Of a stretch of 41,965 bases of DNA, positions 8,230-36,412 are shown one piece after another. The stretch lies in IMG/VR virus record IMGVR_UViG_3300001796_000073, positions 1 through 41,965 of that record; one strand, 5' to 3'. Position numbers and translations under genes: made by a program. The DNA comes from a virus. Each line of letters opens with the position of its first letter. The stretch's first letter is position 1. The notes below the pieces were generated by a model, which had not been told where the DNA came from, searched no databases, and saw only the letters and a list, made by a program, of their open reading frames with translations.

Positions 8230-8534
8230 TTCACACCGCCTTCCTGTTGCTCGACCTGCTGGATATGCGCCTCAAGGTCCGCTGCCGCCGCCGCCATACA
8301 GACGGACAAGTCGCGCAATTGCGCTGGCGTGACATCCCAGAGAGAAAATGACGCTCTCTGAGTTCCAGCATCCTTGGTGATGCCGATATACACATCAACA
8401 GAAAGAAGTGAAGTCAGCTTTTCTTCGTCGTTTTTTCTCCAATGCGTATGTTCGAACTCGGTGTCGCCAATCTTTGACGAAAGGCGGTAGTGCTTTTCTG
8501 GAACAAAACGAGGGGTTTCCTTTTTCGCCTTCAT
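8223..8534 (-). CDS. 103-residue early protein, unknown
   Basis: The start is ATG 8534, sharing bases with the recombinase stop (GTGATG; a GTG at 8537 is equally possible). The N-terminus is basic (KAKKETPRFVPEKHYRLSSK), with a beta-rich middle (SLLSVDVYIGITKDAG) and a helical end (QLRDLSVCMAAAAADLEAHI). The local DNA at 8350-8530 is more AT-rich than its neighbours, hinting at recent acquisition. No family is recognised. Confidence 0.5.
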   Translation of the reverse strand: MKAKKETPRFVPEKHYRLSSKIGDTEFEHTHWRKNDEEKLTSLLSVDVYIGITKDAGTQRASFSLWDVTPAQLRDLSVCMAAAAADLEAHIQQVEQQEGGVKC

Positions 8535-9175
8535 CACGCAGCCCTCAACTCAAACGCCCGGCGGGCCTGGGCCTTGGTGATGCGCTTGCGGCAGCGCCAG
8601 GCGGTTTCCACGGCCAGGCCGGGGTCGTCGTCGCGGCTCATCGTCAGGTAATGGCCGCAAGTACGCGGGTCGGCGTGGCCCAGCAGGCTGGCCAGGCGGA
8701 TGCAGGTTTCGGTCGGGCTCGCCGTACTCATGCGGCAGAACTCGGCGCCGAAGGTGTGACGCAGCCAGTGCGGGCTAAGGCGATCATCCACCCCGGCTTC
8801 ACGCGCCCAGTGCTTCAAGCGCAACTGGAACGCCCTGGGCGTCAGCGGCTGGCCGTCGCGCCCCGGGACCAGCGGACCTTCAGCGCCCGCCAGGCGCAAC
8901 AAATCCGCAAAAGCCTCCCGGGCCTCGCCACGCAAATACACAAACAAATCGCACGCCTCGCCCTTCCGGCGGCTCGCCGGCACCAGCAAGCGCTCGATCG
9001 ACAGCGCCGCCTTCACCTCGGCCACCGTCAGCGACAAAAATTCGCTGATCCGCATGCCCGTCGTCAGCAGCGCCCGAAACACAGCAAAGTCCCGCGCCGC
9101 ATCCTTCCGCCGCCCCATCACCTGACGCAGCAAACGCTCCTCTTTGAGCGTCAAACACCGGTTGCTCGTTCCCAT
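8534..9175 (-). CDS. short tyrosine recombinase (integrase catalytic domain only)
   Basis: 213 residues. The full catalytic set is visible: Arg42 in GMRISE, a probable Lys71 (SRRKGE), His136 and Arg139 in PHWLRHTFG, His167 in LLGHAD, and Tyr176 in CGHYLTM. The N-terminal arm- and core-binding domain of typical phage integrases (over 300 residues) is missing, and the protein starts directly at the catalytic fold. ATG 9175 is preceded by GAGGAG. Known: the fold cuts and religates DNA via the Tyr. Inferred: integration/excision or resolution of genome multimers. It sits inside the early operon, not next to a recognisable att site. Confidence 0.85.
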   Translation of the reverse strand: MGTSNRCLTLKEERLLRQVMGRRKDAARDFAVFRALLTTGMRISEFLSLTVAEVKAALSIERLLVPASRRKGEACDLFVYLRGEAREAFADLLRLAGAEGPLVPGRDGQPLTPRAFQLRLKHWAREAGVDDRLSPHWLRHTFGAEFCRMSTASPTETCIRLASLLGHADPRTCGHYLTMSRDDDPGLAVETAWRCRKRITKAQARRAFELRAA

Positions 9176-9258
9176 CTCGCAACTCCTCAAAAGCCTGCGC
9201 ATCAAGGGCTGCGCAGATGCCCAGAAAAAAGAACATCAGAACGAAGGCCTTCAGCCAG

Positions 9259-9708
9259 TCACTCATCGACCAGCCCTGCCAGTCGGGCGCGAATGTCCAG
9301 AATCGTCTGCACCGCCCGGTAAGCCTCGCGGCAGATTTCGTTCATTTCGGCGGGCGTCACGCGGCCATCGGCCAGCGCCTGCTGAACCACGTTGGCAAAG
9401 CGGCCCACCTGGGTATCGCGGGAAAGGAAGAGATCGAGCAGCGCCTGGTCGCTGGCCTCATCGGAGGGCGAAGGGCGGCGGATTGCCACGAAGCCGAGCG
9501 CGTCGGCAAAGGCGTGCAGGATGCGCGGGTCGCCGGTCGCCAGCGACATCGCCACGGCGGTGCCCAGCCCCAGCTTGGCGGTTTCGCATCCCGGCGACAG
9601 CTCATTGAGGAAGGTGCCCGGATGTTTGTCCAGGCGGGCCGCCAGGCCAACCGCACCCCGGTCGGGGAAATCATGCGCTACGCGGTACGCAGCATCCAGA
9701 ACGTTCAT
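9259..9708 (-). CDS. CII-like phage regulatory protein (CP76/phage_CII family)
   Basis: 149 residues. The opening MNVLDAAYRVAHDFPDRGAV and the following LAARLDKHPGTFLNELSPG helix-turn-helix-like stretch match my memory of the phage regulatory CII (CP76) family of P2-like and other temperate phages, whose members promote lysogeny or replication control. The ATG at 9708 is clear. The gene follows the antirepressor after 140 bases carrying nested inverted repeats, a position similar to lambda cII behind tR1. The 83-base gap downstream, before the recombinase start, holds no supported gene. Confidence 0.7.
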   Translation of the reverse strand: MNVLDAAYRVAHDFPDRGAVGLAARLDKHPGTFLNELSPGCETAKLGLGTAVAMSLATGDPRILHAFADALGFVAIRRPSPSDEASDQALLDLFLSRDTQVGRFANVVQQALADGRVTPAEMNEICREAYRAVQTILDIRARLAGLVDE

Positions 9709-9848: not shown

Positions 9849-10397
9849 CTATTCCGTGCCGTTCAACTCAAGCTGATAGGGGATGTTCAGATCGCCAGCC
9901 AAGCCCTTCAGGATCACGCTGAGCGCCTTGCGATCTTCGAGGTCAGGCGCGACGCGCTTTTCCTTCGCAACAGCAAGGAAGGTGCGGATGGCGGTATTAC
10001 GCGAAGCCTTCTCGCGGAACATGTCACCCTTGGCTAGTTCGTACTGGTGCAGAACGTCATCCCATTCCTGATGCTTGGCTTCCAGCCAGTCGGCGGCATC
10101 CACATTGCCGTTTGCTCGAACACGGTCAGGGTTGATCGTGGAGAGAAAGGAAGCCACCCGGTCAACGCGAATCGCGACCATTTCACGATCCTGACCTGCG
10201 CCCCCCATAAGGGGGGTGCAGATACCAAGTCGGCGGGCCAAATAGCCACCCTGAACCTTCATTCTTTGGTTCTCCCACTTCAAGCCGATCACATCGCAAA
10301 TCGGCTTCAGCGGAACACGCTGATAGCCATCCTCACCGTCGACAATCGGCAACACCACGCCGCCGAACGCCAGTCCAATAGAAATCACCTTGCTCAT
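9849..10397 (-). CDS. phage antirepressor (P22_AR_N-type)
   Basis: 182 residues. The N-terminal half (GVVLPIVDGEDGYQRVPLKP, then ICDVIGLKWENQRMKV) matches the P22-type antirepressor N-terminal domain, which binds repressors to trigger lytic growth. The C-terminal half is helical and basic (FLAVAKEKRVAPDLEDRKAL). The ATG overlaps the Cro-like stop (ATGA) and has GAGGAG upstream. As the second gene of the leftward early transcript, it is probably shut by the repressor in the lysogen. TAG ends it. Confidence 0.85.
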   Translation of the reverse strand: MSKVISIGLAFGGVVLPIVDGEDGYQRVPLKPICDVIGLKWENQRMKVQGGYLARRLGICTPLMGGAGQDREMVAIRVDRVASFLSTINPDRVRANGNVDAADWLEAKHQEWDDVLHQYELAKGDMFREKASRNTAIRTFLAVAKEKRVAPDLEDRKALSVILKGLAGDLNIPYQLELNGTE

Positions 10398-10594
10398 GCT
10401 GCTTTCTCCTCAGGGAACAAAACCTGCTCAACCGACAGGCCAAGCGCCTCGGCCATCTTTTTCGCCTTGGCCGGGCTAATGCCAACCAGCCCGCGCTCAA
10501 TGCGAGAGATAGATCCCGGTGTCACGCCAACACTCTTGGCCAGGTCGTACACCGTCAGCCCTTTGAGTTTTCGTGCCTTCTTAATCTCGGTCAT
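10394..10594 (-). CDS. Cro-like HTH_3 repressor
   Basis: 66 residues from ATG 10594, behind GAGGC. The XRE/HTH_3 fold spans almost the whole protein (TVYDLAKSVGVTPGSISRIE is the turn region). It is the first gene of the leftward early operon, diverging from the larger HTH repressor across a 90-base operator region. Size and place are those of Cro. Longer readings run back through the operators and are not plausible. Confidence 0.85.
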   Translation of the reverse strand: MTEIKKARKLKGLTVYDLAKSVGVTPGSISRIERGLVGISPAKAKKMAEALGLSVEQVLFPEEKAA

Positions 10595-10684
10595 TTGTTG
10601 TGCCTCACAAAACAGATGCCTAATTGTTGTGTTTTGCAAAACGTTTGTCAACTGGTTGTGTTTTTGTTGTGTAATTCGCAACAA
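10595..10684. promoter_or_regulatory. lysis-lysogeny switch: operators and face-to-face promoters
   Basis: This 90-bp AT-rich gap holds three exact TTGTTGTG octamers (10595, 10624, 10664), a TTGTGCCTCACAA inverted repeat (10598-10610), the perfect palindrome GTTTTGCAAAAC (10631-10642), and TTGTTG paired with CAACAA (10664-10669 and 10679-10684). These look like operators for the two HTH repressors. The leftward promoter has a consensus TTGACA (complement of 10646-10651), 17 bases, then AACAAT (complement of 10623-10628), with the palindrome in its spacer. Confidence 0.75.
10645..10675 (+). promoter_or_regulatory. probable repressor-maintenance promoter, leaderless start
   Basis: TTGTCA (10645-10650) and TGTAAT (10670-10675) are 19 bases apart. 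The expected transcript start falls at or just before the repressor ATG at 10685, and no Shine-Dalgarno precedes that ATG. This resembles the leaderless cI message of lambda. Its -35 shares bases with the opposing early promoter's -35. Confidence 0.5.
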
Positions 10685-11014
10685 ATGAACCTAGGCAAAG
10701 CAATTGAGCAACTTCGCGAAGCCAAAGGGTTGAAGCAGTCGGCGCTGGCGAAGCTGGTTGGGGTTGATCGCAGCTCAATCTGCAACTACGAGGCGGGCGG
10801 CAACTACCCGAGCATTCCTGTGCTCGTTCGAATTGCCAATGTCCTAGGCGTTAACGTCTGTGAAATATTTGCAAAGGCGGAGGGCGTGGCGCTGGAAATC
10901 AGGTCAGAAACCCCGGATCAGACCAAGACACGATTGATGCTTGAGTCGCTTGATCAGCGCGACCTTTACAAGGTCGCTGCCATCGCTGAAATCATCAAAG
11001 GAGATGGGAAGTGA
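10685..11014 (+). CDS. CI-like HTH_3 phage repressor, short form
   Basis: 109 residues. N-terminal XRE/HTH_3 domain (KGLKQSALAKLVGVDRSSIC as helix-turn-helix, residues about 15-35). The C-terminal part (about 66-109) is charged and helical (TPDQTKTRLMLESLDQRDLY). There is no LexA-like S24 protease domain, so RecA-stimulated self-cleavage is not expected and the antirepressor may do the induction. The ATG lacks a ribosome site, consistent with leaderless translation. Its stop overlaps the next gene's GTG. Confidence 0.85.
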   Translation: MNLGKAIEQLREAKGLKQSALAKLVGVDRSSICNYEAGGNYPSIPVLVRIANVLGVNVCEIFAKAEGVALEIRSETPDQTKTRLMLESLDQRDLYKVAAIAEIIKGDGK

Positions 11015-14811: not shown

Positions 14812-15507
14812 TTAACCGTCTGTAGCCCCCAGCACCGCATCGCCGCTCACGAACTGCTCATGCACCGGCGCGCCCAGCCGACGCATGCACTCCGCCCGCT
14901 CCGCCGCATCGCGGCAGACCACCGTGAAGTAAAACTCCGCGCTGTTCGCCTCCTGCATGCGCTCCGCACCGGCCTCGCGCGCCGCCTTCACCTCCGCCAG
15001 CTTCTCCTTGCTTGCCGCCACCTCGTCGTCATCCTCGAACAGGTGCGAAAAGCGCGCGTCGCCGTCGAACATCAGGTCGACGTCGATCTGGTCGAAGCCC
15101 ATGCCGGCGAAGTCGATGCCGGCTGAAAGGTTCAGGTCGGCCAGCAGGTCAAGGTCGAACGACCCGCCCGCGCTCGGGTTGTTCAGGAAAACCAGCATCT
15201 CCCGTTCCTGAACGTCGGTAAGCTCGCACGCCGAAACGTCCAACTGGTAATCGTTCTCCCGCGTCAGCGGGTTGTACTTCTCCAGCCGGTCGAGATTTTC
15301 CAGCCGCTGGTGCCCGCCCACCAGGTAGGCCGTGCGTCGGTTCCAGATCAGCGGCTGCAGCAGGCCGACATCCTTCAGCTTGCCGCGCAGGCGCTGCTGC
15401 TGCTTCTTTCCGATCGTGCGCGGGTTGTCGGGGTGCGGAAAAATCTCATGCCGCCACACCCGCACCATCTCAAACCGCTGGTACTTCGTCAGGTTCTCAG
15501 AACTCAC
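14812..15507 (-). CDS. ParB/sulfiredoxin-fold protein paired with PAPS-reductase-like gene
   Basis: 231 residues from GTG 15507, with GAGG upstream and overlapping the previous gene by 11 bases. The N-terminal 100 residues are ParB/Srx-like: EIFPHPDNPRTIGKKQQQRL, GLLQPLIWNRRTAYLVGGHQ (GxxxPLxxN and the GGHQR motif). The remainder is acidic and helical and lacks a visible catalytic motif. Known: ParB-like domains bind or cut DNA and can be NTPases, and phages often pair them with PP-loop PAPS-reductase-like enzymes. It is the last late gene before the terminator. Confidence 0.8.
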   Translation of the reverse strand: MSSENLTKYQRFEMVRVWRHEIFPHPDNPRTIGKKQQQRLRGKLKDVGLLQPLIWNRRTAYLVGGHQRLENLDRLEKYNPLTRENDYQLDVSACELTDVQEREMLVFLNNPSAGGSFDLDLLADLNLSAGIDFAGMGFDQIDVDLMFDGDARFSHLFEDDDEVAASKEKLAEVKAAREAGAERMQEANSAEFYFTVVCRDAAERAECMRRLGAPVHEQFVSGDAVLGATDG

Positions 15508-16219
15508 GGCCGTTTTCCTCCATCTCCATCTCGAACTGCCGCACCCCGGCCCCAACAAACGGGAACCAGCGCGCCACCTTCTCGTAATCCGCCGGGTAGT
15601 GCCGGCGCAGCAAAAACATGTCGTCGCCCTGCAGCGACCGGAACGAATGCCCGAGAAAGCGGGATTCCGGGCTCACCTTCAAATCGCGCTGCTTGATGTA
15701 GGCCATCACGTCCGGCTGGCGGAAGTACATCAGCGGGTAAAACCGGCCGCGCTTCACATCGAGATGGCCGGAATGCTTCATCATCGCCCGCCGCCAGATC
15801 GAATCCGCAATCCGCTCGCCCGCCGCGATGAAATGCGCCCCGGTCTGCTGCCGCACATAAGCGTAAATGTCCTGGATGCCCACCGGCGGCACAGCCCAGT
15901 CCTCATGCCGGAACACCCCAAGCCGGAACCAGTCGGAAAGCTCGAAGTGCGGCAAGCGCATCACCTCGATGCCGTAGCGGTTCTCCGCCCAGCGGATCGC
16001 CGCTTCCTGGAACGACAGCCCCGGCACCTGGTACATGAAGAACACATGCACCTCGTCGAAATACCGGCAGCACAGATCCAGCGTCACCACCGAATCTTTC
16101 CCGCCAGAGAAAGCCACGATCACCGACCGCGCAAAACGGCTCTGCGCCTTGATCGGCTCAAAAAGAAGCCGCCCGGTGGGCGGCCGCTTCTTCGGCTTTT
16201 TCGGTGCCGCCCTGGACAT
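15497..16219 (-). CDS. PAPS-reductase-like PP-loop ATP pyrophosphatase
   Basis: 240 residues. SGGKDSVV at about 38-45 is the PP-loop that binds ATP pyrophosphate. An RYFDEVHVFFMYQVPG strand-loop and RLPHFELSDW follow, as in PAPS reductase/DndC-like proteins. The C-terminal part (GHSFRSLQGDDMFLLRRHYP) probably binds substrate. The basic N-terminus (KKPKKRPPTGR) could hold nucleic acid. Known: the superfamily adenylates or reduces substrates, including DNA-backbone sulfur chemistry in Dnd systems. A role in DNA modification with the ParB-like partner is inferred, not shown. Confidence 0.85.
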   Translation of the reverse strand: MSRAAPKKPKKRPPTGRLLFEPIKAQSRFARSVIVAFSGGKDSVVTLDLCCRYFDEVHVFFMYQVPGLSFQEAAIRWAENRYGIEVMRLPHFELSDWFRLGVFRHEDWAVPPVGIQDIYAYVRQQTGAHFIAAGERIADSIWRRAMMKHSGHLDVKRGRFYPLMYFRQPDVMAYIKQRDLKVSPESRFLGHSFRSLQGDDMFLLRRHYPADYEKVARWFPFVGAGVRQFEMEMEENGREF

Positions 16220-18413: not shown

Positions 18414-18808
18414 TACCGCAGCCCCAGCTGCGCCTTCTGCGCGCGGCCCCAGGCTCGGCAGTCCTCGACGAAGGCGTTGTAAAGCTCGAACTCGGCACTG
18501 GGCGCGGTGCGCAGCAGCTTGATTTCATCGCCGATGCTGTATTGCTCGGCGATTTTTTCCGCCACGCGGGCGCGGATCAGCGCGACGTGCGGGCTGGCGT
18601 CCTCGATGGCGCGGCGCAGGTCGGCGGTCAGCGTCACCGGCTGGATGCTGGCTGCGATCTCGGCCGGCTGCTCGGCCGGCAGGTCGGCGCCGTCAGGTAC
18701 GTGCACATAGGTCACGTCCTCGATGGTCGCCAGCTCGGTCGAGCCGTCCGGCACGACCAGGCGGTGCGTCGTAAATGCGTCGGTAGCTTGCTGGTACTGG
18801 TAAATCAT
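18413..18808 (-). CDS. 131-residue protein downstream of the DGR, unknown (possible tail-fibre helper)
   Basis: ATG 18808 follows a strong AAGGAG. The product starts IYQYQQATDAFTTHRLVVPD and then has VTYVHVPDGADLPAEQPAEI and helical LRRAIEDASPHVALIRARVA. Small proteins of this build often sit behind tail-fibre or host-recognition genes as assembly helpers, but the family is not certain. The first 116 bases overlap the end of the reverse transcriptase in another frame, so the two are coupled. Confidence 0.6.
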   Translation of the reverse strand: MIYQYQQATDAFTTHRLVVPDGSTELATIEDVTYVHVPDGADLPAEQPAEIAASIQPVTLTADLRRAIEDASPHVALIRARVAEKIAEQYSIGDEIKLLRTAPSAEFELYNAFVEDCRAWGRAQKAQLGLR

Positions 18809-19760
18809 GGTGGTGCTCCTTTAGGTATTGGCACATGTGGCGCAGGGAAGCGGTTCTGCGAGCATGGCCGAGGCTGGAAACAACGCTGGCGGCATGGCCC
18901 ATTCTGGCCGCCCGGCGAAAACGAAAAAGGGAGAACCTTCGGACAAGCCGGCGCGTCGCCCACGTTCGGTAGCCCACGAAATTCACGCCGCGCGAAACAC
19001 GGTGAATGCTGCTTTTGGAGAGTTCAAGCCGCAGACGGCCGCCAAGAAACTCAACAATCCGCCGGCGGCAGCGCAGCGCCTGGTCGCGGCTCAGGCCGAT
19101 CAGCACAAAGTCATCGACGTAGCGCGCGTAATACCGGGCGCCGAGGTCGCGCTTGATGAAATGGTCCAGCGCATTGAGGTAGATCAGTGCGTAAAGCTGG
19201 CTGAGCAGGTTGCCGATTGGCACGCCCGCCTCATCTTCGTGGTCGGCAAAGCGCATCATCAGGTCCACCAGGCGGTGATCCTTGATCCGGCGCTCAACCA
19301 GTCCGCGCAGAATGCTGCGGTTGATGTGGTGGTAAAACTTGCGGATGTCAAGCTGCAGCACGTAGCTGTCACGCGGCACACGCTGCAGCGCTCGCTGCAC
19401 GTAGTCCGAGGCTGCGTGCGTCCCTTTGCCCGGCCGGCAAGCGAACGACTGCGGGATGAAAGTTGCGTCGAAAATCGGCTGGATCACCCGGTAGATCGCG
19501 TGCTGCACCACGCGGTCGCGGAAGGCTGGCGCATGAATCAGCCGGCGCTTCGGCTCGAATACCTCAAAGGCGTTGTAAGGCGCAATGCGGTAGCTGCCAT
19601 CCGCCAGCTCAGCATGCAGTGCGTCAAGGTTGCTACCCAGGCGCTTTTCAAAGGCGTAGCAGCTATTCGAGGCGCGCTTGTTCTTGCGGGCGTCCAGATA
19701 GGCGGCGTGCAGCGCCTCTCTGGTAAAGCAGACGTCGTAAAGATTGCCGTAGCGCTTCAT
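18693..19760 (-). CDS. DGR reverse transcriptase
   Basis: 355 residues from ATG 19760 (the frame extends upstream only to a TTG). It has the retron/DGR-type fingers and palm: LQLDIRKFYHHINRS with catalytic Asp138, GVPIGNLLSQ (179-188), and YARYVDDFVLI with the YVDD box at 214-217. The IGxxxSQ motif, in place of the SP ending of other bacterial RTs, is diagnostic of DGR enzymes. Known: with Avd it copies TR RNA into cDNA, misreading adenines. The C-terminal 38 codons overlap the following gene and may be extra. Confidence 0.95.
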   Translation of the reverse strand: MKRYGNLYDVCFTREALHAAYLDARKNKRASNSCYAFEKRLGSNLDALHAELADGSYRIAPYNAFEVFEPKRRLIHAPAFRDRVVQHAIYRVIQPIFDATFIPQSFACRPGKGTHAASDYVQRALQRVPRDSYVLQLDIRKFYHHINRSILRGLVERRIKDHRLVDLMMRFADHEDEAGVPIGNLLSQLYALIYLNALDHFIKRDLGARYYARYVDDFVLIGLSRDQALRCRRRIVEFLGGRLRLELSKSSIHRVSRGVNFVGYRTWATRRLVRRFSLFRFRRAARMGHAASVVSSLGHARRTASLRHMCQYLKEHHHDLPVPASYRRIYDAPPGRAGRLDRAGDHRGRDLCART

Positions 19761-19889
19761 GATCCGCCCCGCTGGTCGTCGAACGGGCAAGCCCGCCTAC
19801 CAAAAAGCGGGCGGCACAACGATTTCGCCCAAGGCCGGAAGGCATCTCCCTCTGCTCCACCATGCCAGTGACGGCTGCGAGGTAGCGCG
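19761..19889 (-). ncRNA. DGR spacer (Sp) RNA segment downstream of the TR
   Basis: This 129-base stretch between TR and RT start has no supported gene. In BPP-1 a structured region of about 140 bases here primes cDNA synthesis and binds Avd-RT. A GCCCGC/GCGGGC hairpin is visible (19791-19796 with 19807-19812). Function by analogy; the exact RNA ends are unknown. Confidence 0.55.
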
Positions 19890-20005
19890 GAGTCGGCGCG
19901 GCAGCCGGCATTGAAGTTCGAATTGCCACGCGTGTTGTTCCAGTTGCGCGCCCAGACGCCGGCATTCGAGCCATTGTCCCAGTTCGCCGAAACAATCAGA
20001 GCCAT
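19890..20005 (-). repeat. DGR template repeat (TR)
   Basis: 116 bases, offset exactly 562 from the VR. They differ at 14 positions, all of them A in the coding (minus) strand of TR and T, G or C in VR. AAC/AAT codons are abundant, as in known TRs where they code surface positions (if translated, NWDNGSNAGVWARNWNNTRG). It begins right after the Avd stop. 9 of the 23 TR adenines are unchanged, among them the four in the FN segment near the IMH-like 3' end. Confidence 0.95.
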
Positions 20006-20006
20006 A

Positions 20007-20411
20007 TCAAGATGCCTCCCGTTGCTGCTTTTCCCGGTCGGCCTGCATCCAGCCGCCGATCATTCGCCCGATCTCGTCGACCCGGGCGGACAAGGCGGTG
20101 TAGCGGCGCACGGCCGTAGCCGCGCCCGCTTCATTCACCCCGTCCTTGAACTCGAAATAACCGAGTTCGTTGGCCAGGCGGACGAACATGCGCAGTTGCT
20201 CGTGGGCAATGTCCATGTTCGTCAGCGTGGTTTTCTTGTGATAGCGCTTCTGGGCCTCGATGATCAGCGCGTACAGCGAGTAGGCCGCGCGGCGTATTTC
20301 CAGCGCGAGGCCGTACTTTTCGTGCTTCGGGAAATGGTTGAGGTAGGTATTGAGCAGCCTCACCATCTCCACGAACCGCCGGTCCAGTTGTGCCTCGCTG
20401 TGCAGTGCCAT
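20007..20411 (-). CDS. avd: Avd-like DGR accessory protein
   Basis: 134 residues, all helical: FVEMVRLLNTYLNHFPKHEK, YGLALEIRRAAYSLYALIIE, the AHEQLRMFVRLANELGYFEF stretch, and AVRRYTALSARVDEIGRMIG. This is the four-helix-bundle pattern of Avd/S23-intervening-sequence proteins. It is rich in basic residues on one side. Known: Avd forms a pentameric barrel that binds TR RNA and the RT. It lies between the target's VR and the TR, the classic order. Confidence 0.92.
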   Translation of the reverse strand: MALHSEAQLDRRFVEMVRLLNTYLNHFPKHEKYGLALEIRRAAYSLYALIIEAQKRYHKKTTLTNMDIAHEQLRMFVRLANELGYFEFKDGVNEAGAATAVRRYTALSARVDEIGRMIGGWMQADREKQQREAS

Positions 20412-20416
20412 CGTCC

Positions 20417-20441
20417 GCCCCTGTCGCTATCGCTCTGGGGC
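20417..20441. repeat. inverted repeat just downstream of the VR
   Basis: GCCCC (20417-20421) and GGGGC (20437-20441) flank 15 bases between the target stop codon and the Avd start. BPP-1-type DGRs need a hairpin or cruciform just 3' of VR for efficient retrohoming. The stem here is short and the loop large, so assignment is tentative. Confidence 0.4.
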
Positions 20442-22061
20442 TCAGAGATACGAGGCGGCGCGGCAGCCGGCATTGAAGTTCGAACCGCCACGCGTGCTGA
20501 TCCAGTCGCGCGCCCAGACGCCGGCAACCGAGCCACTGCCCCAGACCGCCGAAACAAACAGAGCCAGTTCGTTGCGGATGTACTGATAGCAGTGATCCTG
20601 CCCGAACCGATTCGTCCCGCTAGCGCCCATGGCTGAGACACGCGGCAGCCCCTTGGCGGTGCGCCGCCAGCCAGCGCCGGTTGTGGCCGCATCCAGCACT
20701 TGTTGCGAGCCATCGCCGACACGACGGCTGACACCGTTGTTCGGGTAGTCGGTCCGCAGCGGGCTGAAGCCCAGCGGCTCCATCATCGCAGCAACGCCGG
20801 TTGCGCCCCAGTGGTCCGTCGCCAGCGTGTTGCCGCTGGTGAAGTTGCGCATTGCGGTCGATTGCTTGGCGCCGTGGAACGCGCCCTTGGTTGCCGATCC
20901 GCCCGAGGTATAAGCCGAGAAGCCGGTACCGTCCGCGCCGTTGAGCGTAAAGGTGTTGGCGTCGACCACGGTGATCGTGAAAATCCGGTCGTTGATCTGC
21001 GTCATGCCGCCAATGCCGGTGAGCTGGATCTCGTCGCCGGTCGTGTAGCCGTGCGCGGCGACGGTGACAGCAACCGGGTTGGCCTGCGTGGCACCGGTGA
21101 CGGTTTTGCTCGCGGCGATACAGGTGACGCCGATGGCCACTTCCCACATCAAGCCGTTGAGGTCCGCAATACCGGAGGCTTGGCCGTTGTGCGTCGTCTT
21201 GGCAAACGGCGTTCCGCTACCGGTCTTTCCACAGTTGCTGTAGCCGTCTGAGACGTAGAGCACGCTGGTGTCGTTAATGTCCCGAAGGGCGTTGTTGTTG
21301 CAGCCCTTGGGAAAATTGGTCACGCCAGCGGCGTCGTACCAGGCGCACCACGTCGCCGACGTTGCGGCCTGCCCGTGCGCCAGCGACAGCAGCGCCAGCG
21401 CGCCGTACTGGTAGATGCTCGCACAATGAAACGCCGCGCCGCGCGTCTTGGCGGCAAGGATCGCCGAGGCGTAGATGTTGGCCGGGGCGCCGTTCAGCCC
21501 GCTGGCCGGATTGTGATCCGCATGGAAGCTGATGGCGTTGCCGTTGCGGATGCTGGAGGCGATCCCGCCGTTATTCGACACCATGTACTTGTCGAAGAAG
21601 AACCCGGTTTGCACGCCGCCGCCATCGATGAAGGCGCGGTGCAGTGCGTAGCCCTGGGCGTTGGCGACGGTCTGGTTTTCAAAGGCGGAAACCGGCTTGA
21701 TATCCACCGAGTCCACGCCGTGCGCGGCAAACGTCGGGTTGCTGGCGTGGCCGATCCGGTAATAAAACGCCGGAATCCAGCACATGATCGAGCCATCTGA
21801 GTAGGCGTAATTGCCGTAGTTGTCGCTGGCCGGGTCGGTGTAGCCGGGCAGCGGGGTGTAGCCGGCCGGCACAATCGGGCACGGCGCCACGCCGAAGCCG
21901 GCGGTTCCGGGAATGCCGATATCCGCCGTGTTGAGCGCGTGAATGTGCTGCGCCTGGATGACTTTGGTCAAGCCACCGTCAGCCACCAGCATCAGCTCTG
22001 TGCCCTTGAGGTGAGTGAGCCGGCGGTCCGGGTTGTCGTATAGCTCTTGAATGGTCGGCAT
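20442..22061 (-). CDS. DGR-diversified tail protein (C-type-lectin/FGE-like fold)
   Basis: 539 residues. The N-terminus (TIQELYDNPDRRLTHLKGTE) suits tail attachment. Residues about 60-315 and 390-539 form an FGE-sulfatase/C-type-lectin-like fold (YSDGSIMCWIPAFYYRIG; DHCYQYIRNELALFVSAVWG), ending in the VR with GVWARDW and NAGCRAASYL. An extra beta domain (about 325-385: VAAHGYTTGDEIQLTGIGGM, TITVVDANTFTLNG), like E1 FCCH-type modules of other phage proteins, is inserted. Its C-terminal 38 residues are the VR. Inferred: receptor-binding protein at the tail tip, diversified to switch receptors. Confidence 0.93.
   Translation of the reverse strand: MPTIQELYDNPDRRLTHLKGTELMLVADGGLTKVIQAQHIHALNTADIGIPGTAGFGVAPCPIVPAGYTPLPGYTDPASDNYGNYAYSDGSIMCWIPAFYYRIGHASNPTFAAHGVDSVDIKPVSAFENQTVANAQGYALHRAFIDGGGVQTGFFFDKYMVSNNGGIASSIRNGNAISFHADHNPASGLNGAPANIYASAILAAKTRGAAFHCASIYQYGALALLSLAHGQAATSATWCAWYDAAGVTNFPKGCNNNALRDINDTSVLYVSDGYSNCGKTGSGTPFAKTTHNGQASGIADLNGLMWEVAIGVTCIAASKTVTGATQANPVAVTVAAHGYTTGDEIQLTGIGGMTQINDRIFTITVVDANTFTLNGADGTGFSAYTSGGSATKGAFHGAKQSTAMRNFTSGNTLATDHWGATGVAAMMEPLGFSPLRTDYPNNGVSRRVGDGSQQVLDAATTGAGWRRTAKGLPRVSAMGASGTNRFGQDHCYQYIRNELALFVSAVWGSGSVAGVWARDWISTRGGSNFNAGCRAASYL
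20452..20567 (-). repeat. DGR variable repeat (VR)
   Basis: The 116-base 3' end of the target gene. Relative to TR it shows N to V, D to G, N to S, N to V, N to D, N to I, N to S and N to G changes inside, plus I to F, M to L and D to A at the edges (11 codons, 14 bases). The downstream GC-rich 3' portion (complement of 20454-20482) is identical to TR and would be the initiation-of-mutagenic-homology site. Confidence 0.95.
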
Positions 22062-22490: not shown

Positions 22491-25400
22491 TTACGGGGTG
22501 TAGTTCCGTGCGATCACGGTGTAGGCGATGACGATCGGCCAGCCGATCTCGATCAGGTTCTTGGTGGCATTCGCGGTGCGGTCATAGACCTGCATGTTTT
22601 TCGAGCCCTGCAGGTAGATCTTGTTGCCGCTGGTCGCGCTGCCCTTGTTCCACCGCGTCACGATGTACGTCGACGTGATGACGTTGTGCGTTGCCGCCAG
22701 GTTGCTGACGGTGTGCGCCTTGTACTTGGGACGGCCGGCGGCGTTGTCGCCGTCCCGCTCGCGATAGGTTGCGCCACTGACAAGATGGCCATGCAGCTCG
22801 GTGATTGTGTTGGGGCTGACCGTCAGCGACGACCACGACGCGGTGATGTTGTAGGCCGGCACGTCGTCGGCATTCACAATCACGGTCAGGTCGGAAAACT
22901 GGAACGTCGCCGGTAGCGTGATCTCGACCTCATAGGTGCCGTCCGCATTCAGCGTGGTCGGCATGGTCACCATGCCCTGCGCCACGATGGTGCCGATGCC
23001 CGGCGTGATGGTCACGCTCTTGCCCGTCGCCGGGTCGGATACCTGCAGTCCGTACTTGCCTGGCGCCAGCAGGCCCAGCTTGACGCGCTCGTCGGCGTTC
23101 TGGTCGCGCACCAGTAGCCGCTTGGCGTCCAGGTCAAAATCCACCGTGTTGTCGGCGCTGCGCATCTTGCCGGCGATGATCTCGCCCAGGTTGGCAACGA
23201 TGGCCGAGAGGCTGGCGACGCTGATATGACTGGCGCCGACCGCCCCGGTGGTGACAACGAACTCGCCCGACACGTTGAGGTTGTCATCCCCGTACACATC
23301 GTAAGCGGCGCAGCGCACGTACCAGGTGCGGTTCGGCTCCAGCGGCAACTGGCGGATCGGGCTGGCGCCGTCGTACTTGAGATTGCCGACCGTCAGCGGG
23401 AATCCGCTGGTTTTGCTGGCCCAGACCTTGAAGCCGACCAGATCGACATCGAGCGGCGGCGAGCACGACCAGAGCGCGCCCTGCGCATCGCTGACGACCT
23501 GCACGTTGTTGAGCTGGCCAATCTGCGCATTCGTCGCGCTGATCGTCGCTTCGCTGTCGCCGGCCACCACGCCCAGCGGGAGCACGCGGAATTCCAGCGT
23601 CCGCCACGGCCCGCCATCCATGCCGGCATCGGCGATGCTGTAGGCGTAGGCCGTTTCGGTGATGGTCGTCTCGCGGCGCAGCACGCCGGCCGCCCAGACC
23701 TGCACGCGGTAGCGGTCTGCCCGCGGCACCGGTGACCAGCGAATGCGGCAGTCCAGCCCGGTGAAAGGCGCATCGAGGTGCAGATCGACCACGCCGCCGG
23801 GCGCCGTCACCGTGGCGCCGCTGGTGCTGCTGTAGTAGGCCCACGGCCCGCGCAGCAGGCCCATGGCGGCAACGCGGGCGTTGAAATACTGGCCGGGCGG
23901 GATGCCTTCGAGCGTCCAGCGGCTGCCGGTGGTGTCGCCGGCCTTGACCCAGTTGATGTCGTCGGTGGTGTATTCCACCAGATAATGCGTGGCGCCCTCG
24001 GCCGGTTGCCAGGTGATGATCTGCTGCGGCGCAGTCGGCGTGCCGGCCTCGCTCACCAGCAACCCGGTGACGACCGGCGCGCTGGGCACGCTGGGGTAAC
24101 CGGCGGCGGTATCGTCCGGGATGGTGGCGGATTCGGCATCGTGCACGCGCATGTCTTCCGCCACGGCCTCGATCTCGACCGTGGTGCGGCCCTTGGGGCG
24201 GATGGCGGTCAGCAGCGCCTGCAGCTCGATCTGATTGGCCGGACCGAAGGCGTAACGCGTCCGCTCGCGGCGGTAGCCTTCCCATTCTGGCGTAAAGCCG
24301 GGGTCGGTCAGCAGCGTGACGCGGTGCGGGTCGGTGGCGTGCGGCGATACCTGGATGATGCCGGTCGGCGTGCCGTTGTCGCGCACCAGCCGGACGTAGT
24401 GGTTGCCGCTCGCGGCCCACTCGGGCGGCTCGGACAGCACGGCGGTCAGCGTGCCGGCATCCCAGCCGACAATCTCGCCCGACTGGCCCCACCTGGGCAC
24501 ATCGTGAACGATGCCGACCAGATCGCCGAAGCGGACCAGATAGCCGTCCATTTCGGTTTCCAGCTTGATGATGCGGCGGCGCCAGCGGTTGGCGCCGGCC
24601 ATGTACATGCCTTCACGCACCACCTGGTCACGATTGACCATGCCGAAGGCCTTGGCGTCGGCCAGCTTGCCGCCGGCCGACCCGGGCAGCACGCAGGTGG
24701 CGTCGCGCTCGCGCCAGTAGCGTTCGTCGAAGTAGGCCAGCCGCACGCCGTCCGACGTATCGGTGACAGCCGGGGCGTATTCCATCGAGAACGAACCGGC
24801 AACGATGTTGCGCGGCGTGAACATGTACTGCGGCACCGTCTGCGGGGCGTCCCGCCAGAAGCGCACCTTGCCCGACTGCTGGTACCACTTGGCGCGGCCG
24901 GCGCGGGCCGTGATGGTCAGGGCTTCACCCACGGTCATCTTGCCGTCGAAGCGGGCGTCGAAGGTGTCGCCACGGCCAGCCCAGACGCCGGCCAGGGCAT
25001 ACAGCCCGGCGAGGTCATAGCGGTCATCCGCCAGACTGGCGCCGTAGCTGGCGCGACAGATGTCGGCCAGCGCCCAGGCAATGTTGCGCGTGGCCACCGG
25101 TGCCGACCAGCCGGTGGTCGGGTGCCAGGTCGGCAGCTTGCGCGTGGAAATGATGTTGATCTTGCGCGTGGCCTGCTCGCTGATCTGCGCCGTGGCCTTG
25201 AGCTTGACGGCCAGCAGCGTGATGTTGCCGTAGTCGGTCTCGTCCGGCAGGTAGGCACGCAGCCCGGCCCAATGCACGGCATGCGCAGCGCGGGCGCTGG
25301 TATCTTTGGCATCCAGCCGCGAAACGCGTACCCGGTAGCGGCCGGCGGCGACGGTATAGCGGTAGCTGCGGCGAATGGCGGTATTGGTGGCGCCGGTGAT

Positions 25401-26342
25401 CACCGGCTCGCCCAGCGTAGCCCAGGCGCCGACCGGCTCGCCCTCGTCGTCGACCAACTGCGCCTCGATGCGCACGGTGACGCTGCGGCTATCCAGCCCG
25501 CCGGCGTTGTTGCTGTAGTAAAGCCCGTTCGGGCACACCAGATCGACGCCGATGGCGGTGGCCAGCTCGTCGGAACCGCTGGCAACGAACGGCCCCTGCA
25601 TGCCCAGGATTTCGGCGCCGCCGATTTCGGCGCTCTGAATGACGGCCGACGGGAACAGCGTGACGTCGCCGCCGGGTGGCACGATCTCTGTCTGCGCACC
25701 TTCGAACGAGCCAATCGGCGTGTCCTCGATGCGAATGGCCTCGATGTCGTACTCGCCCTGGCCGACGACGAACAACTGGTAGAGGTACTGCTCGTTGTCC
25801 TGGTATTCCTGGTACGGGCGCGCAGCGAAATCAAGGTAAGCGATGTGCCGGCCATACTGCACCGTGATCGGTTGCTCCAGGCGCGCGGCATTGCCCTGCG
25901 CCGCCAGGTTGTAGGTGGGCGACGGCGCCGACATTTCGGCGAAGGCCTGCGGCGTGGGCGGTTTTGGCTGCGGCAGGATGGCATTGAGCAGCAGCGAGGC
26001 GGCCATCTGCAATCCGGCGGTAAGCAGGGCGGTGCCCATCGTCCCCAGCTTCATTGCGCCAGCCAAAGCCGGCGCGACATACACCGCGATTACGACCATC
26101 ACCACCATTGCCAGAATCTGGCCGAACTGCTTGCCGCGCGGCATGACCACGAAGGCCACGGTATCCCCGTGCTTGACCTTGCGCTTCCAGCCGGCGCGCA
26201 GCAGCGGCTTGCCGTTGTAGATGCACACCACCGGCCGGTCGGTCTTCGGCGCCATGGCCGCGATCCGGCGGTTTTTCGGGATGCGCTCGACCGTGCGCGC
26301 TGCCGGATCAAACGGATCGAGCGACTTGATCAGCAGCGGCAT
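22491..26342 (-). CDS. tail-tip central fibre / host-specificity protein (lambda J-like)
   Basis: 1283 residues from ATG 26342. The N-terminal 90 residues include a conserved VVCIYNGKPLLRAGWKRKVK segment, then a membrane-like LAMVVMVVIAVYVAPALAG and LLTAGLQMAASLLLNAILPQ patch, as in gpI/gpJ-type tail-tip proteins. After that come beta-rich hub domains (ITVQYGRHIAYLDF; WALADICRASYGASLADDRY), fibronectin-like repeats (ITWQPAEGATHYLVEYTTDD; CRIRWSPVPRADRYRVQVWA) and a variable C-terminus. Known: J forms the hub that plugs the tail and reaches the receptor. It overlaps the NlpC gene by 13 bases. Confidence 0.85.
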   Translation of the reverse strand: MPLLIKSLDPFDPAARTVERIPKNRRIAAMAPKTDRPVVCIYNGKPLLRAGWKRKVKHGDTVAFVVMPRGKQFGQILAMVVMVVIAVYVAPALAGAMKLGTMGTALLTAGLQMAASLLLNAILPQPKPPTPQAFAEMSAPSPTYNLAAQGNAARLEQPITVQYGRHIAYLDFAARPYQEYQDNEQYLYQLFVVGQGEYDIEAIRIEDTPIGSFEGAQTEIVPPGGDVTLFPSAVIQSAEIGGAEILGMQGPFVASGSDELATAIGVDLVCPNGLYYSNNAGGLDSRSVTVRIEAQLVDDEGEPVGAWATLGEPVITGATNTAIRRSYRYTVAAGRYRVRVSRLDAKDTSARAAHAVHWAGLRAYLPDETDYGNITLLAVKLKATAQISEQATRKINIISTRKLPTWHPTTGWSAPVATRNIAWALADICRASYGASLADDRYDLAGLYALAGVWAGRGDTFDARFDGKMTVGEALTITARAGRAKWYQQSGKVRFWRDAPQTVPQYMFTPRNIVAGSFSMEYAPAVTDTSDGVRLAYFDERYWRERDATCVLPGSAGGKLADAKAFGMVNRDQVVREGMYMAGANRWRRRIIKLETEMDGYLVRFGDLVGIVHDVPRWGQSGEIVGWDAGTLTAVLSEPPEWAASGNHYVRLVRDNGTPTGIIQVSPHATDPHRVTLLTDPGFTPEWEGYRRERTRYAFGPANQIELQALLTAIRPKGRTTVEIEAVAEDMRVHDAESATIPDDTAAGYPSVPSAPVVTGLLVSEAGTPTAPQQIITWQPAEGATHYLVEYTTDDINWVKAGDTTGSRWTLEGIPPGQYFNARVAAMGLLRGPWAYYSSTSGATVTAPGGVVDLHLDAPFTGLDCRIRWSPVPRADRYRVQVWAAGVLRRETTITETAYAYSIADAGMDGGPWRTLEFRVLPLGVVAGDSEATISATNAQIGQLNNVQVVSDAQGALWSCSPPLDVDLVGFKVWASKTSGFPLTVGNLKYDGASPIRQLPLEPNRTWYVRCAAYDVYGDDNLNVSGEFVVTTGAVGASHISVASLSAIVANLGEIIAGKMRSADNTVDFDLDAKRLLVRDQNADERVKLGLLAPGKYGLQVSDPATGKSVTITPGIGTIVAQGMVTMPTTLNADGTYEVEITLPATFQFSDLTVIVNADDVPAYNITASWSSLTVSPNTITELHGHLVSGATYRERDGDNAAGRPKYKAHTVSNLAATHNVITSTYIVTRWNKGSATSGNKIYLQGSKNMQVYDRTANATKNLIEIGWPIVIAYTVIARNYTP

Positions 26343-26731
26343 GCGGCACCTGTGTAACGGTAGAACTTGATCTGGGTGTATTCGTCGGCCAGGCGGTCCA
26401 GCGGCGTCGCCATGCCGCCCAGCGGGGTGTCGCAATGCAACACGCGGCCGCCATCGACATCCACCCAGATGCCGACGTGCGCTTCCTGGTGACCCTTGAC
26501 CATCATCAGGCCGTCACCTTCCTGCGCCTCAGCGGCCGGGATTTCCGTCCAGTTGGCACGCTCCGGGTGGCTGGCAAACACGGCCGACTTGGCGGCCAGG
26601 CGGTAATCCGCCTGGGGCACGGCCGGCAGATCGCGCCCGAACTGCTCGCGCTGCACCGTGCGGAAGAATCCCCAGCAGTCACATTCCGGCGACCACGGCA
26701 GGCCGAGGTATTTGATGGACCAGTGGCTCAT
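26330..26731 (-). CDS. NlpC/P60 tail assembly protein (lambda K-like)
   Basis: 133 residues. Catalytic-type Cys19 in ECDCWGFFRTVQREQFG, His85 in AHVGIWVDVDGGRVLHC and the following His99/Cys pair fit the NlpC/P60 peptidase domain of gpK-like tail proteins. It is located between the tail-tip chaperone-like gene and J, as in lambda. Known: gpK is a peptidoglycan-cutting tail component, acting during entry or tail assembly. Confidence 0.85.
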   Translation of the reverse strand: MSHWSIKYLGLPWSPECDCWGFFRTVQREQFGRDLPAVPQADYRLAAKSAVFASHPERANWTEIPAAEAQEGDGLMMVKGHQEAHVGIWVDVDGGRVLHCDTPLGGMATPLDRLADEYTQIKFYRYTGAACRC

Positions 26732-33726: not shown

Positions 33727-36294
33727 TCAGGCAGCGCGATTCACACGGCCGGTGGCGCTGTACAGCACGATGGACGTGAAGCCCTTCTTCAGCGGCGCCG
33801 GCGTATGCAGGGCGATGAACTGGTCGCCGTAGGCTTCCTTCTTGCCGGTGAAGCGGCCGTTCGCGTCCTTCTGGTTCTCGAGCTGGCCCAGCGCCCACGG
33901 CTTGAGCATGCGGAAGCGGGTCAGGCCGCGCTGGCCGATCACGATGCGGTTATCCGCCAGTTGCAGGCCCGGCGCGTAGCTCTTGAAGCTGGGCACGCCC
34001 TTGACCACGCCGAGATTGCCGGTCTGGTCCAGGTTGGTGCCCGGAACGGCAAAGTTCGCCTTGAAGCTCTCGGCCTGCTCAATGGCCGTCATCAAGGTGC
34101 CAGACATCAGCATCTGCCCGGCCTGGTAGCTGCGCTGATCTTCCAGCAGGCTCTTGCGCAGACCGATGCGGTACAGCAGGTCGTCGTAGCGTTCCTTGAC
34201 CTTCAGGCCGCCCAGGTCGGTATCCCACTTCGCCACGTTGGTGCTGTAGCTGTAGGCCGTCACGGTGATCGTCAGGCCGTTGGTCGGCGTCACGATGGCC
34301 CCCGCCTGATTGACGAAGCGGATTTCACCCAGTTGGTAATCCAGCACGAAGTAGGTGCCAGCGGCCTGGGTGCCGGTGCCGTCGTACTCCAGGCAGGCAT
34401 TGCCGTTGTAGGTCACCGTTACCGGGTTGGCCACGTTGCCGATCAGGTTGCCCTGCAGGTCGAAGATGCGGCGCGGCTTGACCACCGGGAAGTTGGCCAG
34501 CACGAAAATCTTGTTCGTGCCATTCACGCCGGTCAGCGACTCGTTGGCGACCGCCACTGCGCCGAATTCATCCGACGCGTTGACCTGCTCGTTCCAGATC
34601 AGGCGCTCGGTGTCTTCGCCGACGATGCGGATCGCGTTGCGGGCGTTCTCGGCCAGCACGTCGAAGTTGATCTGGCCGTTGCCGGTCAGGTAGCGCAGTT
34701 CGTCGGAAACCTCGAACGCCAGCTTCTGCGGCAGCGGGTAAGCCAGGTCCATCGCCTGACGGATGCCGGCGCGCTTCACCGGCTGGCCTTCATAGGTGCG
34801 CGTGTCGTTCATGCCGGCGGCCGTCGTGTCGCGGTAGCTGTACGGGATCGAAACCGACTGCGAGAACACATCGGTACCGACATCGACCAGCGACAGGCCG
34901 ACCATCTGGTACAGCACTTCGCGGATCACGGTCCGCTCGAACACGGCCGGCACAGCCACGTCCGTCATCACGCCAGCGCCACCGGCCAGCATCTTGTGCT
35001 CGGCATGCAGTTGCGCGCCGTGCAGGGCGTCGAACTCGGCCAGCACCTTGTCGGCCAGCGCCTTGCCCTCGGGCACCTCGACGCCGCCGGACAGCGCGAA
35101 GCGACGGCGCGAAGCCGCACCATCGATGCCCAGGCGCTTGTCGACCGCTTCCTGCAGCGCCTTGACCTGGTTCGAAGAATCCACGGAAATGATGGCATTG
35201 CCGCGGAAGTTGCCAAAGCCCATGGTCGCCAGTTGCTTCTGGGCGGCCAGCGGCTCACCAAGCTTGATGATCTTCTCGGCCAGCGCCTTGACGCCAGCTT
35301 CGTCCATGGCGGCAACCACATCGGCCATCGGCTCGCACAGTTCCTTGAGCAGATCGGCGTCCTTGATCTTCTCGCCGACCGTATCGGAGAGCAGCTTGCG
35401 GCGGGCGTCGGCGGTTTCCGACAGCTTCTTGGCGGCGGCGGCGGATTCGGCCAGGGCCTTGGCGACGGCGGCCTGCACCTGGTCGGCGGTCTGGCCCACG
35501 GTGATCGTGATATTGCCCACTGCCTGACCGCTTTCGGCCAGCTTGATCGCGCCATCCAGCAGCGAATCGCACAGCGCCTTCATCGCTGCATCGTCGGTCA
35601 TGCCCGTCATCGCCTGCTCGGCAGCCTTGAGCACCGAAGCAATGGCGGCTTCGGAGAGTTTCTTTTCGGCCAGGGCGGCCTTGAGTTGTTCCAGATGCTT
35701 GTTCATGGTCGTTCGTACCTCATTGATCAGTTCGGAAAGCAGCGTCGGATGCAGCAGGATTGCTGGCCCGTCGCCGTCGGTTTGCTCGCTCAACGAAATG
35801 GGATCGAGGCGCTTGATCACCGGTCGAATCGTCAGACCGGCCCCGAGGAGAACGCATCCATGGGTCGCGCGTTGTTCGTTGTCCTGCCAGTTCTCGTGGA
35901 ACTCGGCCGAGAGGTAGCGGAAGCCACGCTTCTTCACGGCATCGACGCCATACGGCGTCCATTCGACCAGGGCGCGCAGGCGGTCGCCCTCGATCGTCAG
36001 CTTCAGCAGCTTCGCCGCGGCGCCGTTGTCCGGCTCGTGCGAAACGTCGAAAAAGATTTCCTGCCCGTAGGTGTTCTTCTCGAAGTTGCCCACCATCTCG
36101 GCCAGCATCGCCCGGCTGATCTCGAACTCACCATAACGGCGGTCGAAGAACTTGCCGGTACGCGTGACCGTCACCCAACTAGTGGGCTTTTCCTCGGAAA
36201 TGTCGTCAGCCAGCTTGATCGGCAGACCGGAAACAAAACGGAACGTCCGCCCTTCGTCGGCGCCGGAAAGTTTGAAGTGTCGGTTTGCTCGCAT
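33727..36294 (-). CDS. prohead protease-scaffold-major capsid fusion protein
   Basis: 855 residues from ATG 36294 (GAGGGT upstream). Residues 1-200 resemble Mu I-type prohead proteases (FFDVSHEPDN with His86; GFRYLSAEFHENW with Ser129). Residues about 210-370 are Ala/Lys-rich helices (EQLKAALAEKKLSEAAIASV, LAESAAAAKKLSETADARRK) typical of scaffold. The remainder is an HK97-like capsid (VFERTVIREVLYQMVGLSLV; TDVFSQSVSIPYSYRDTTAA; GQINFDVLAENARNAIRIVG). Known: single-chain protease/capsid fusions exist. The protease presumably frees the mature capsid subunit; the cleavage site is unknown. Confidence 0.85.
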   Translation of the reverse strand: MRANRHFKLSGADEGRTFRFVSGLPIKLADDISEEKPTSWVTVTRTGKFFDRRYGEFEISRAMLAEMVGNFEKNTYGQEIFFDVSHEPDNGAAAKLLKLTIEGDRLRALVEWTPYGVDAVKKRGFRYLSAEFHENWQDNEQRATHGCVLLGAGLTIRPVIKRLDPISLSEQTDGDGPAILLHPTLLSELINEVRTTMNKHLEQLKAALAEKKLSEAAIASVLKAAEQAMTGMTDDAAMKALCDSLLDGAIKLAESGQAVGNITITVGQTADQVQAAVAKALAESAAAAKKLSETADARRKLLSDTVGEKIKDADLLKELCEPMADVVAAMDEAGVKALAEKIIKLGEPLAAQKQLATMGFGNFRGNAIISVDSSNQVKALQEAVDKRLGIDGAASRRRFALSGGVEVPEGKALADKVLAEFDALHGAQLHAEHKMLAGGAGVMTDVAVPAVFERTVIREVLYQMVGLSLVDVGTDVFSQSVSIPYSYRDTTAAGMNDTRTYEGQPVKRAGIRQAMDLAYPLPQKLAFEVSDELRYLTGNGQINFDVLAENARNAIRIVGEDTERLIWNEQVNASDEFGAVAVANESLTGVNGTNKIFVLANFPVVKPRRIFDLQGNLIGNVANPVTVTYNGNACLEYDGTGTQAAGTYFVLDYQLGEIRFVNQAGAIVTPTNGLTITVTAYSYSTNVAKWDTDLGGLKVKERYDDLLYRIGLRKSLLEDQRSYQAGQMLMSGTLMTAIEQAESFKANFAVPGTNLDQTGNLGVVKGVPSFKSYAPGLQLADNRIVIGQRGLTRFRMLKPWALGQLENQKDANGRFTGKKEAYGDQFIALHTPAPLKKGFTSIVLYSATGRVNRAA

Positions 36295-36312
36295 TGCACC
36301 CTCGTTCAGGTT

Positions 36313-36367
36313 GTCGCGGGGCGCTGGTGCGAGATGGGAGGAGAAACCAGCAAGGAAACCCCGCGAC
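36313..36367 (-). promoter_or_regulatory. long hairpin in the capsid-gene leader
   Basis: On the minus strand GTCGCGGGG (36359-36367) pairs perfectly with CCCCGCGAC (36313-36321), and GCTGG pairs with CCAGC inside (36347-36351, 36323-36327). It ends 18 bases before the capsid start and lies in a 118-base gap without a gene. It could stabilise the message, be a processing site or moderate translation. Confidence 0.6.
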
Positions 36368-36392
36368 AGCGCCAATTTTCCCGGCGCGCAAC

Positions 36393-36406
36393 GGCAAAAA
36401 AAGGGG
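36393..36406 (-). repeat. CCCCTTTTTTTGCC motif, copy 2
   Basis: An exact second copy of the 14-mer just after the head morphogenesis stop codon and upstream of the capsid leader hairpin. Together with copy 1 it marks gaps before highly expressed late genes. Confidence 0.5.
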
Positions 36407-36412
36407 AGGAAC

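Follow-up and report, generated by a model that had tools for sequence, protein, structure and literature searches.

The 41,965-nt window analyzed here (IMG/VR virus record IMGVR_UViG_3300001796_000073; all coordinates are positions in this window) was read, with a probability of about 0.93, as carrying a complete, BPP-1-type diversity-generating retroelement (DGR) acting on a lectin-like tail protein of an uncultured phage that is lambda-like and temperate. The reading is supported by the statistics of the template repeat (TR) and variable repeat (VR), the phylogeny of the reverse transcriptase (RT), profile matches, the predicted fold of the target protein and the divergence of VRs in relatives. 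One intact cassette is thereby added to the many DGRs already catalogued (PMC8144416). The main value of the case lies in its comparative RNA evidence, with a priming step that we infer.

Cassette, repeat pair and reverse transcriptase

Every named part of the cassette was located at 18693-22061 on the minus strand (Table 1), in the order target-VR, avd (accessory variability determinant), TR, RT that is also the order in BPP-1. No internal stop was present in the RT, avd or target frames, and the original prediction of a complete, stop-free set on one strand was confirmed in both respects. VR stops 10 nt short of the 3' end of the target gene (20442).

Table 1. Features of the window, with the cassette listed first and other phage genes below.
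Feature	Position	Strand	Basis or remarks
Target gene	22061-20442	minus	open frame, 539 aa
VR	20566-20452	minus	115-nt repeat of TR, at 3' end of target gene
Interrupted hairpin just past target stop codon	20441-20417	minus	GCCCC, GATA loop, GGGGC; folding
avd	20411-20007	minus	134 aa; Pfam bAvd (E 1.6e-19), PHROG 3206 'Avd protein of DGR' (E 2e-26)
TR	20004-19890	minus	115-nt repeat comparison
Conserved structured RNA (TR 3' end and TR-RT spacer)	19764-19904	minus	51-locus alignment, covariation
TR adenine of GACT motif	19893	minus	VR has C; fixed TR/VR difference (IMH*/IMH)
Predicted TR-spacer duplex	19890-19852	minus	TR 3' end 19890-19881 with spacer GGUGGAGC region (GUGGA segment) 19862-19852
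Candidate cDNA-priming adenine	19851 (A of AGGG; alternative 19853)	minus	invariant in 51/51 loci, near duplex end
DGR reverse transcriptase	19763 (ATG)-18693	minus	356 aa, IGNLLSQ and YVDD
gpJ-like central tail fibre gene	22491-26435	minus	PHROG 31 'central tail fiber J' (2.1e-128); upstream of target
Integrase	8534-9205		Phage_integrase (5.3e-19)
CII-like activator	9259-9708		
Divergent helix-turn-helix (HTH) regulators	10394-10684, 10595-11014		two HTH_3 proteins

A repeat search of the window returned TR and VR as a direct repeat of 115 nt with 89% identity and starts 562 nt apart, and these were the only two copies in the whole record. The copies differed at 13 of 115 positions, and 13 of the 13 mismatches fell on adenines of TR (A>G 8, A>T 4, A>C 1). 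With 22 adenines among the 115 bases of TR, the chance of such an outcome is approximately 0.19^13 = 5e-10. AAY codons made up 9 of the 37 codons of TR, no adenine change could produce a stop codon, and the number of protein variants encodable by TR was calculated as approximately 2.5e12 after exclusion of the fixed position described below.

The RT matched Pfam RVT_1 and PHROG 1423, a reverse transcriptase family (E 3.9e-107), and showed 39.6% identity to brt of BPP-1 by tblastn. Its motifs were YVDD and IGNLLSQ, the latter of the GxxxSQ type. Among solved structures the best match was the 8ub7 group (labelled Reverse transcriptase, E 3.7e-59), with group II RTs at 7.7e-25; from this label, we take the 8ub7 group to be bRT of BPP-1. 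In a maximum-likelihood tree, 29 DGR RTs were split from five group II RTs at 100/99, in agreement with the difference between the SQ (DGR) and SP (group II) motifs, and the RT was placed in the DGR clade, as had been predicted. Nineteen environmental RTs, this one among them, formed a supported set (100/100), within which it clustered with L003, L004 and L110 from Thiobacillus (97/92). The Avd-like protein of the original prediction was recognized by both Pfam and PHROG (Table 1) and scored slightly below the cut-off of NCBIfam DivGenRetAVD (76.9 bits against 80).

The stop codon of the RT gene sits inside the next gene (18808-18413, minus strand), giving an overlap of 116 nt (18693-18808). 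RT 3' ends differ among relatives, and brt of BPP-1 overlaps bbp4 slightly.

Diversification among related loci

Eighty related viral loci were fetched, of which 74 had the same layout with a TR/VR pair biased to adenines. Summed across the whole set of loci, with BPP-1 counted in, TR adenines accounted for 1711 of 1810 mismatches. Closely related loci were compared in pairs. L014 and L016 have RTs 100% identical and identical TRs, and their VRs differed at 19 positions, all 19 at TR adenines; L032 and L036, likewise with identical RT and TR, gave 20 of 20. The corresponding counts were 17 of 18 for L103/L105 and 22 of 25 for L072/L076. Because near-identical loci carry VRs that differ nearly only at TR adenines, the cassette family diversifies VR in nature; the variation at adenine positions that had been proposed for related phages was thus found among relatives of this phage.

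The RTs of the nearest relatives were 66-70% identical to that of the window. Thiobacillus sp. L110 and the IMG/VR loci L003, L004 and L005 have RTs 66-68% and targets 55-60% identical to those of the window. They share the FCCH insert of the target (see below) and the spacer RNA; they differ in species, and each has its own TR and VR. The nearest annotated phage was Pseudomonas phage Bise (OR683401, L120), which has a complete DGR with an RT 56% identical, Avd, the spacer RNA in the alignment, and TR/VR differences 9/9 at TR adenines. Bise differs in being a baseplate-J type phage, with a target of 364 aa that is 28% identical and lacks FCCH. Its record does not name a DGR; the genes carry only the labels reverse transcriptase, four helix bundle and hypothetical protein.

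The alternative that TR and VR are the remnant of a gene duplication, and that the RT is of group II or retron type and merely happens to lie close by, could draw on a weak group II match of the RT in NCBIfam, which at 143 bits was far under the cut-off of 300. This alternative was rejected on the adenine-only differences, the VR divergence in relatives and the RT tree; the SQ motif and the layout shared among the relatives also speak against it, and its probability is practically negligible.

Several loci departed from the common pattern. The TRs of L078 (4742-4858) and L081 (1617-1733) differ in their 5' half at adenine positions, the RTs being identical. In another pair with identical RTs (L017:655-769 and L018:2401-2515), the 5' part of VR in L017 recurs in the TR of that locus. 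Either the TRs of L078 and L017 were overwritten by VR-like or mutated sequence, or reads of TR and VR were mixed in metagenome assembly. In L113 (4104-6591) the target, avd and RT genes stand nearly head to tail, TR and spacer were not found in this locus, and it is perhaps a decayed or rearranged DGR. Two avd and two reverse transcriptase genes are annotated in a row on an Ideonella dechloratans plasmid (L127:3388-6787), adjoining phage tail genes and an integrase; by its gene content this row reads as a double DGR on a 709-kb replicon. Two target-like gene copies (L041:1-1263 and 2649-4310) lie upstream of one DGR, in which a single TR/VR pair was detected.

Spacer RNA, priming and the boundary of copying

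The spacer between TR and RT (126 nt in the window, 116-151 nt across loci) was aligned for 51 diverse loci, and a five-helix structure was read from the alignment. Paired cells amounted to 95.4% against 73.3% in shuffles, and double-change cells to 205 against 61. The covariation score was 0.619 against 0.194 in shuffles, with the caveat that kinship of the sequences can raise scores above shuffles. Columns 143-182, for example, covaried as CG in 26, UA in 23 and GC in 2. The size of the gap over the shuffles and column pairs of this kind are hard to explain otherwise than by a conserved structured RNA. An RNA model (R1) scored 104.5 bits at the spacer, its sole match in the window, and a Rfam gathering scan of the window returned no match. 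R1 also gave no credible match in Ideonella, ACA1 or a Nitrospirota DGR, filters off included.

If the spacer were instead protein-coding, or a terminator or leader, the frame that opens at the start of TR and runs on through the spacer (19757-20005) would fit. The length differences among loci, however, are not multiples of three, and substitutions track base pairing at the score given above. A coding spacer was rejected on these two grounds, and any such non-priming role is very unlikely.

One TR/VR difference was set apart by comparison of the loci. In 99 of 101 loci, VR carried C (GCCT) where TR has the adenine of GACT; opposite other TR adenines, the VR base was A in 43%, G in 30%, C in 14% and T in 13%. 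This constancy at 19893 is beyond random mutagenesis, so the difference is a fixed one between IMH* and IMH (initiation of mutagenic homing), outside the copied stretch. Of the 13 TR/VR differences, all at TR adenines, 12 are thus attributable to mutagenesis and one is a fixed boundary difference. The start of cDNA synthesis probably lies 5' of the GACT adenine, close to G 19894, which is invariant. Through this fixed GACT/GCCT boundary, the window and its relatives map the start and stop of copying without experiments.

On the VR side, the interrupted hairpin past the target stop codon is the probable counterpart of the hairpin/cruciform of BPP-1, which is required for efficient homing and has the 4-nt loop consensus GRNA (PMC3240598). 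The hairpins after VR in relatives had GATA, GGTA or GAGA loops, and that of BPP-1 has GAAA. Perfect hairpin arms of at least 7 followed VR in 18% of the loci, compared with 5% of the shuffled sequences, an excess that is modest because many of the hairpins are interrupted.

The TR 3' end is predicted to pair with the spacer in a duplex that encloses a covarying hairpin. Pairing of TR 3' ends was better with their own spacer (mean -6.9 kcal/mol) than with foreign spacers (-4.9 kcal/mol), at a z of -8.5 that is somewhat inflated by kinship. A competing CCUC/GUGG helix from RNAalifold is nearly invariant and so beyond the covariation test; the duplex is the better supported of the two, although its pairs are not cleanly aligned by column. 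Invariance and geometry together point to 19851 as the putative priming base.

The spacer of BPP-1 folds and brings in bRT-Avd, and cDNA is primed in IMH* by an adenine inside the spacer (PMC12875486). The priming model originates from that phage, and the present loci constitute comparative tests of it. Likeness of the spacer to that of BPP-1 is one of motif and position only. The priming adenine of BPP-1, which we take to be A56, lies by count within GTGGTCAG, right after a similar potential duplex that by itself is not significant (7% of shuffles were as good). With BPP-1 (mtd-VR-avd-TR-brt), the cassette of the window further shares a homologous RT and Avd, probably the hairpin after VR, TR/VR differences that are fixed at the 3' end, a similar predicted duplex beside the priming adenine, and a gene order that includes a small RT-overlapping gene followed by the endolysin region. 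It differs in a target unrelated by detectable sequence and carrying an FCCH insert, in a spacer RNA whose model does not match that of BPP-1, and in the lambda-J-like tail gene set of the phage.

It is moderately likely that the spacer represents an undescribed structured RNA family (not in Rfam 15) of phages and prophages in Pseudomonadota and Campylobacterota, with BPP-1-style self-priming general there. On this reading, the covariation would show that the TR 3' end is paired beside an invariant adenine and that cDNA begins immediately 5' of the adenine in GACT. The comparative data also indicate which RNA parts RT-Avd probably recognises, namely the covarying helices, the TR-spacer duplex and the invariant adenine.

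In the proposed mechanism, the avd-TR-spacer-RT transcript would fold and the RT-Avd complex would be recruited by the spacer. The TR 3' end would pair with the spacer, and the adjacent adenine would prime cDNA near the GACT motif of TR. Misincorporation by the RT opposite template adenines would yield a mutated cDNA, which would replace VR, with the IMH sequence and the hairpin past the target stop codon directing the exchange. The outcome would be variants of the lectin-like tail protein able to bind changed receptors; receptor switching through such variants, like present activity of the cassette in this phage, is presumed here.

Four points weigh against this interpretation. The tree tool marked as uncertain the long branch that separates the DGR RTs from those of group II. 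The covariation structure was taken from the same alignment on which it was scored, an advantage over the slid controls (0.07-0.14). Model R1 gave no credible match in BPP-1, filters off included. A near-identical viral contig was not found with a DNA pattern of the TR core in which mutable positions were entered as N, so VR could not be compared within the phage's own species. The lack of a sister contig also favours a DGR that was once active but has since fallen silent in this lineage, its frames open and its retrohoming stopped, as does the observation of diversification only in relatives whose RTs are approximately 53-68% identical to that of this phage. Set against such silence are the intact RT, avd and target, the retained YVDD and IGNLLSQ motifs and the high score of the spacer RNA. 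Clean TR/VR differences argue against long silence because an element silent for long would have gathered differences at other bases. Silence is accordingly held to be quite improbable, and an active DGR is preferred.

Target protein and phage context

The target was modelled with AlphaFold2 using 42 homologues, giving a predicted local distance difference test (pLDDT) of 88.5 and a predicted TM-score (pTM) of 0.89; the N-terminal 43 residues were poorly modelled. The best solved match of the model was TaqVP (PDB 5vf4; E 2.1e-14, probability 1.00), with moderate TM-scores of 0.41 by query and 0.57 by target. TaqVP comes from a prophage of Thermus aquaticus, where it is the variable protein of a DGR; it is a C-type lectin (FGE subtype) whose VR is C-terminal (PMC6328139). 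Fold and VR position are shared with the target; sequence identity is 16%, and TaqVP is without FCCH. An E1_FCCH domain was identified by Pfam at residues ~314-395 of the target (E 1.4e-12). The model supports the predicted lectin fold, and the target is best described as a C-type-lectin-like variable protein with an inserted E1_FCCH domain.

Among related targets 400 aa or longer, 35 of 88 had the FCCH insert within the lectin-like region and the remainder lacked it; many of the FCCH-less targets align on both sides of the insert site. By these alignments FCCH is an optional, swappable module of the DGR target, and the case shows a lectin scaffold tolerating an inserted beta-barrel. No paper linking DGRs with FCCH domains was found in the literature collection searched.

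A tail-tip protein beside a spike-base gene had been predicted. The gpJ-like gene is indeed adjacent and a small tail-fibre PHROG adjoins the target as well; because the target lies just downstream of the lambda-J-like gene, and given its lectin-like fold, the tail-tip receptor-binding role is a good guess. The DGR could also be active on another virion protein, or on a surface protein of the lysogenic state, and the poorly modelled N-terminus and the optional nature of the FCCH insert would suit such a target. This is unlikely in view of the two adjoining tail genes and of the finding that most DGR targets in viruses are structural proteins of the tail (PMC8144416).

The integrase, CII-like, divergent HTH, gpJ and tape-measure genes support a temperate, lambda-like phage, the lifestyle originally predicted; holin and CHAP endolysin genes were also identified. 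The nearest cassette in a bacterial genome was on a Thiobacillus contig. A search of 100 relatives of that Thiobacillus genome returned a single further RT, which was distant, and the host assignment is therefore uncertain.

Two further loci on the minus strand were recorded. At 14812-16219, a gene with a PAPS-reductase domain is followed by a gene for a ParB-like protein, a pair that presumably resembles the prophage regulator pair IbrAB. At 33727-36426, an 899-aa protein has a Mu-like protease domain in its N-terminal half only, and the remainder may be a fused capsid protein.

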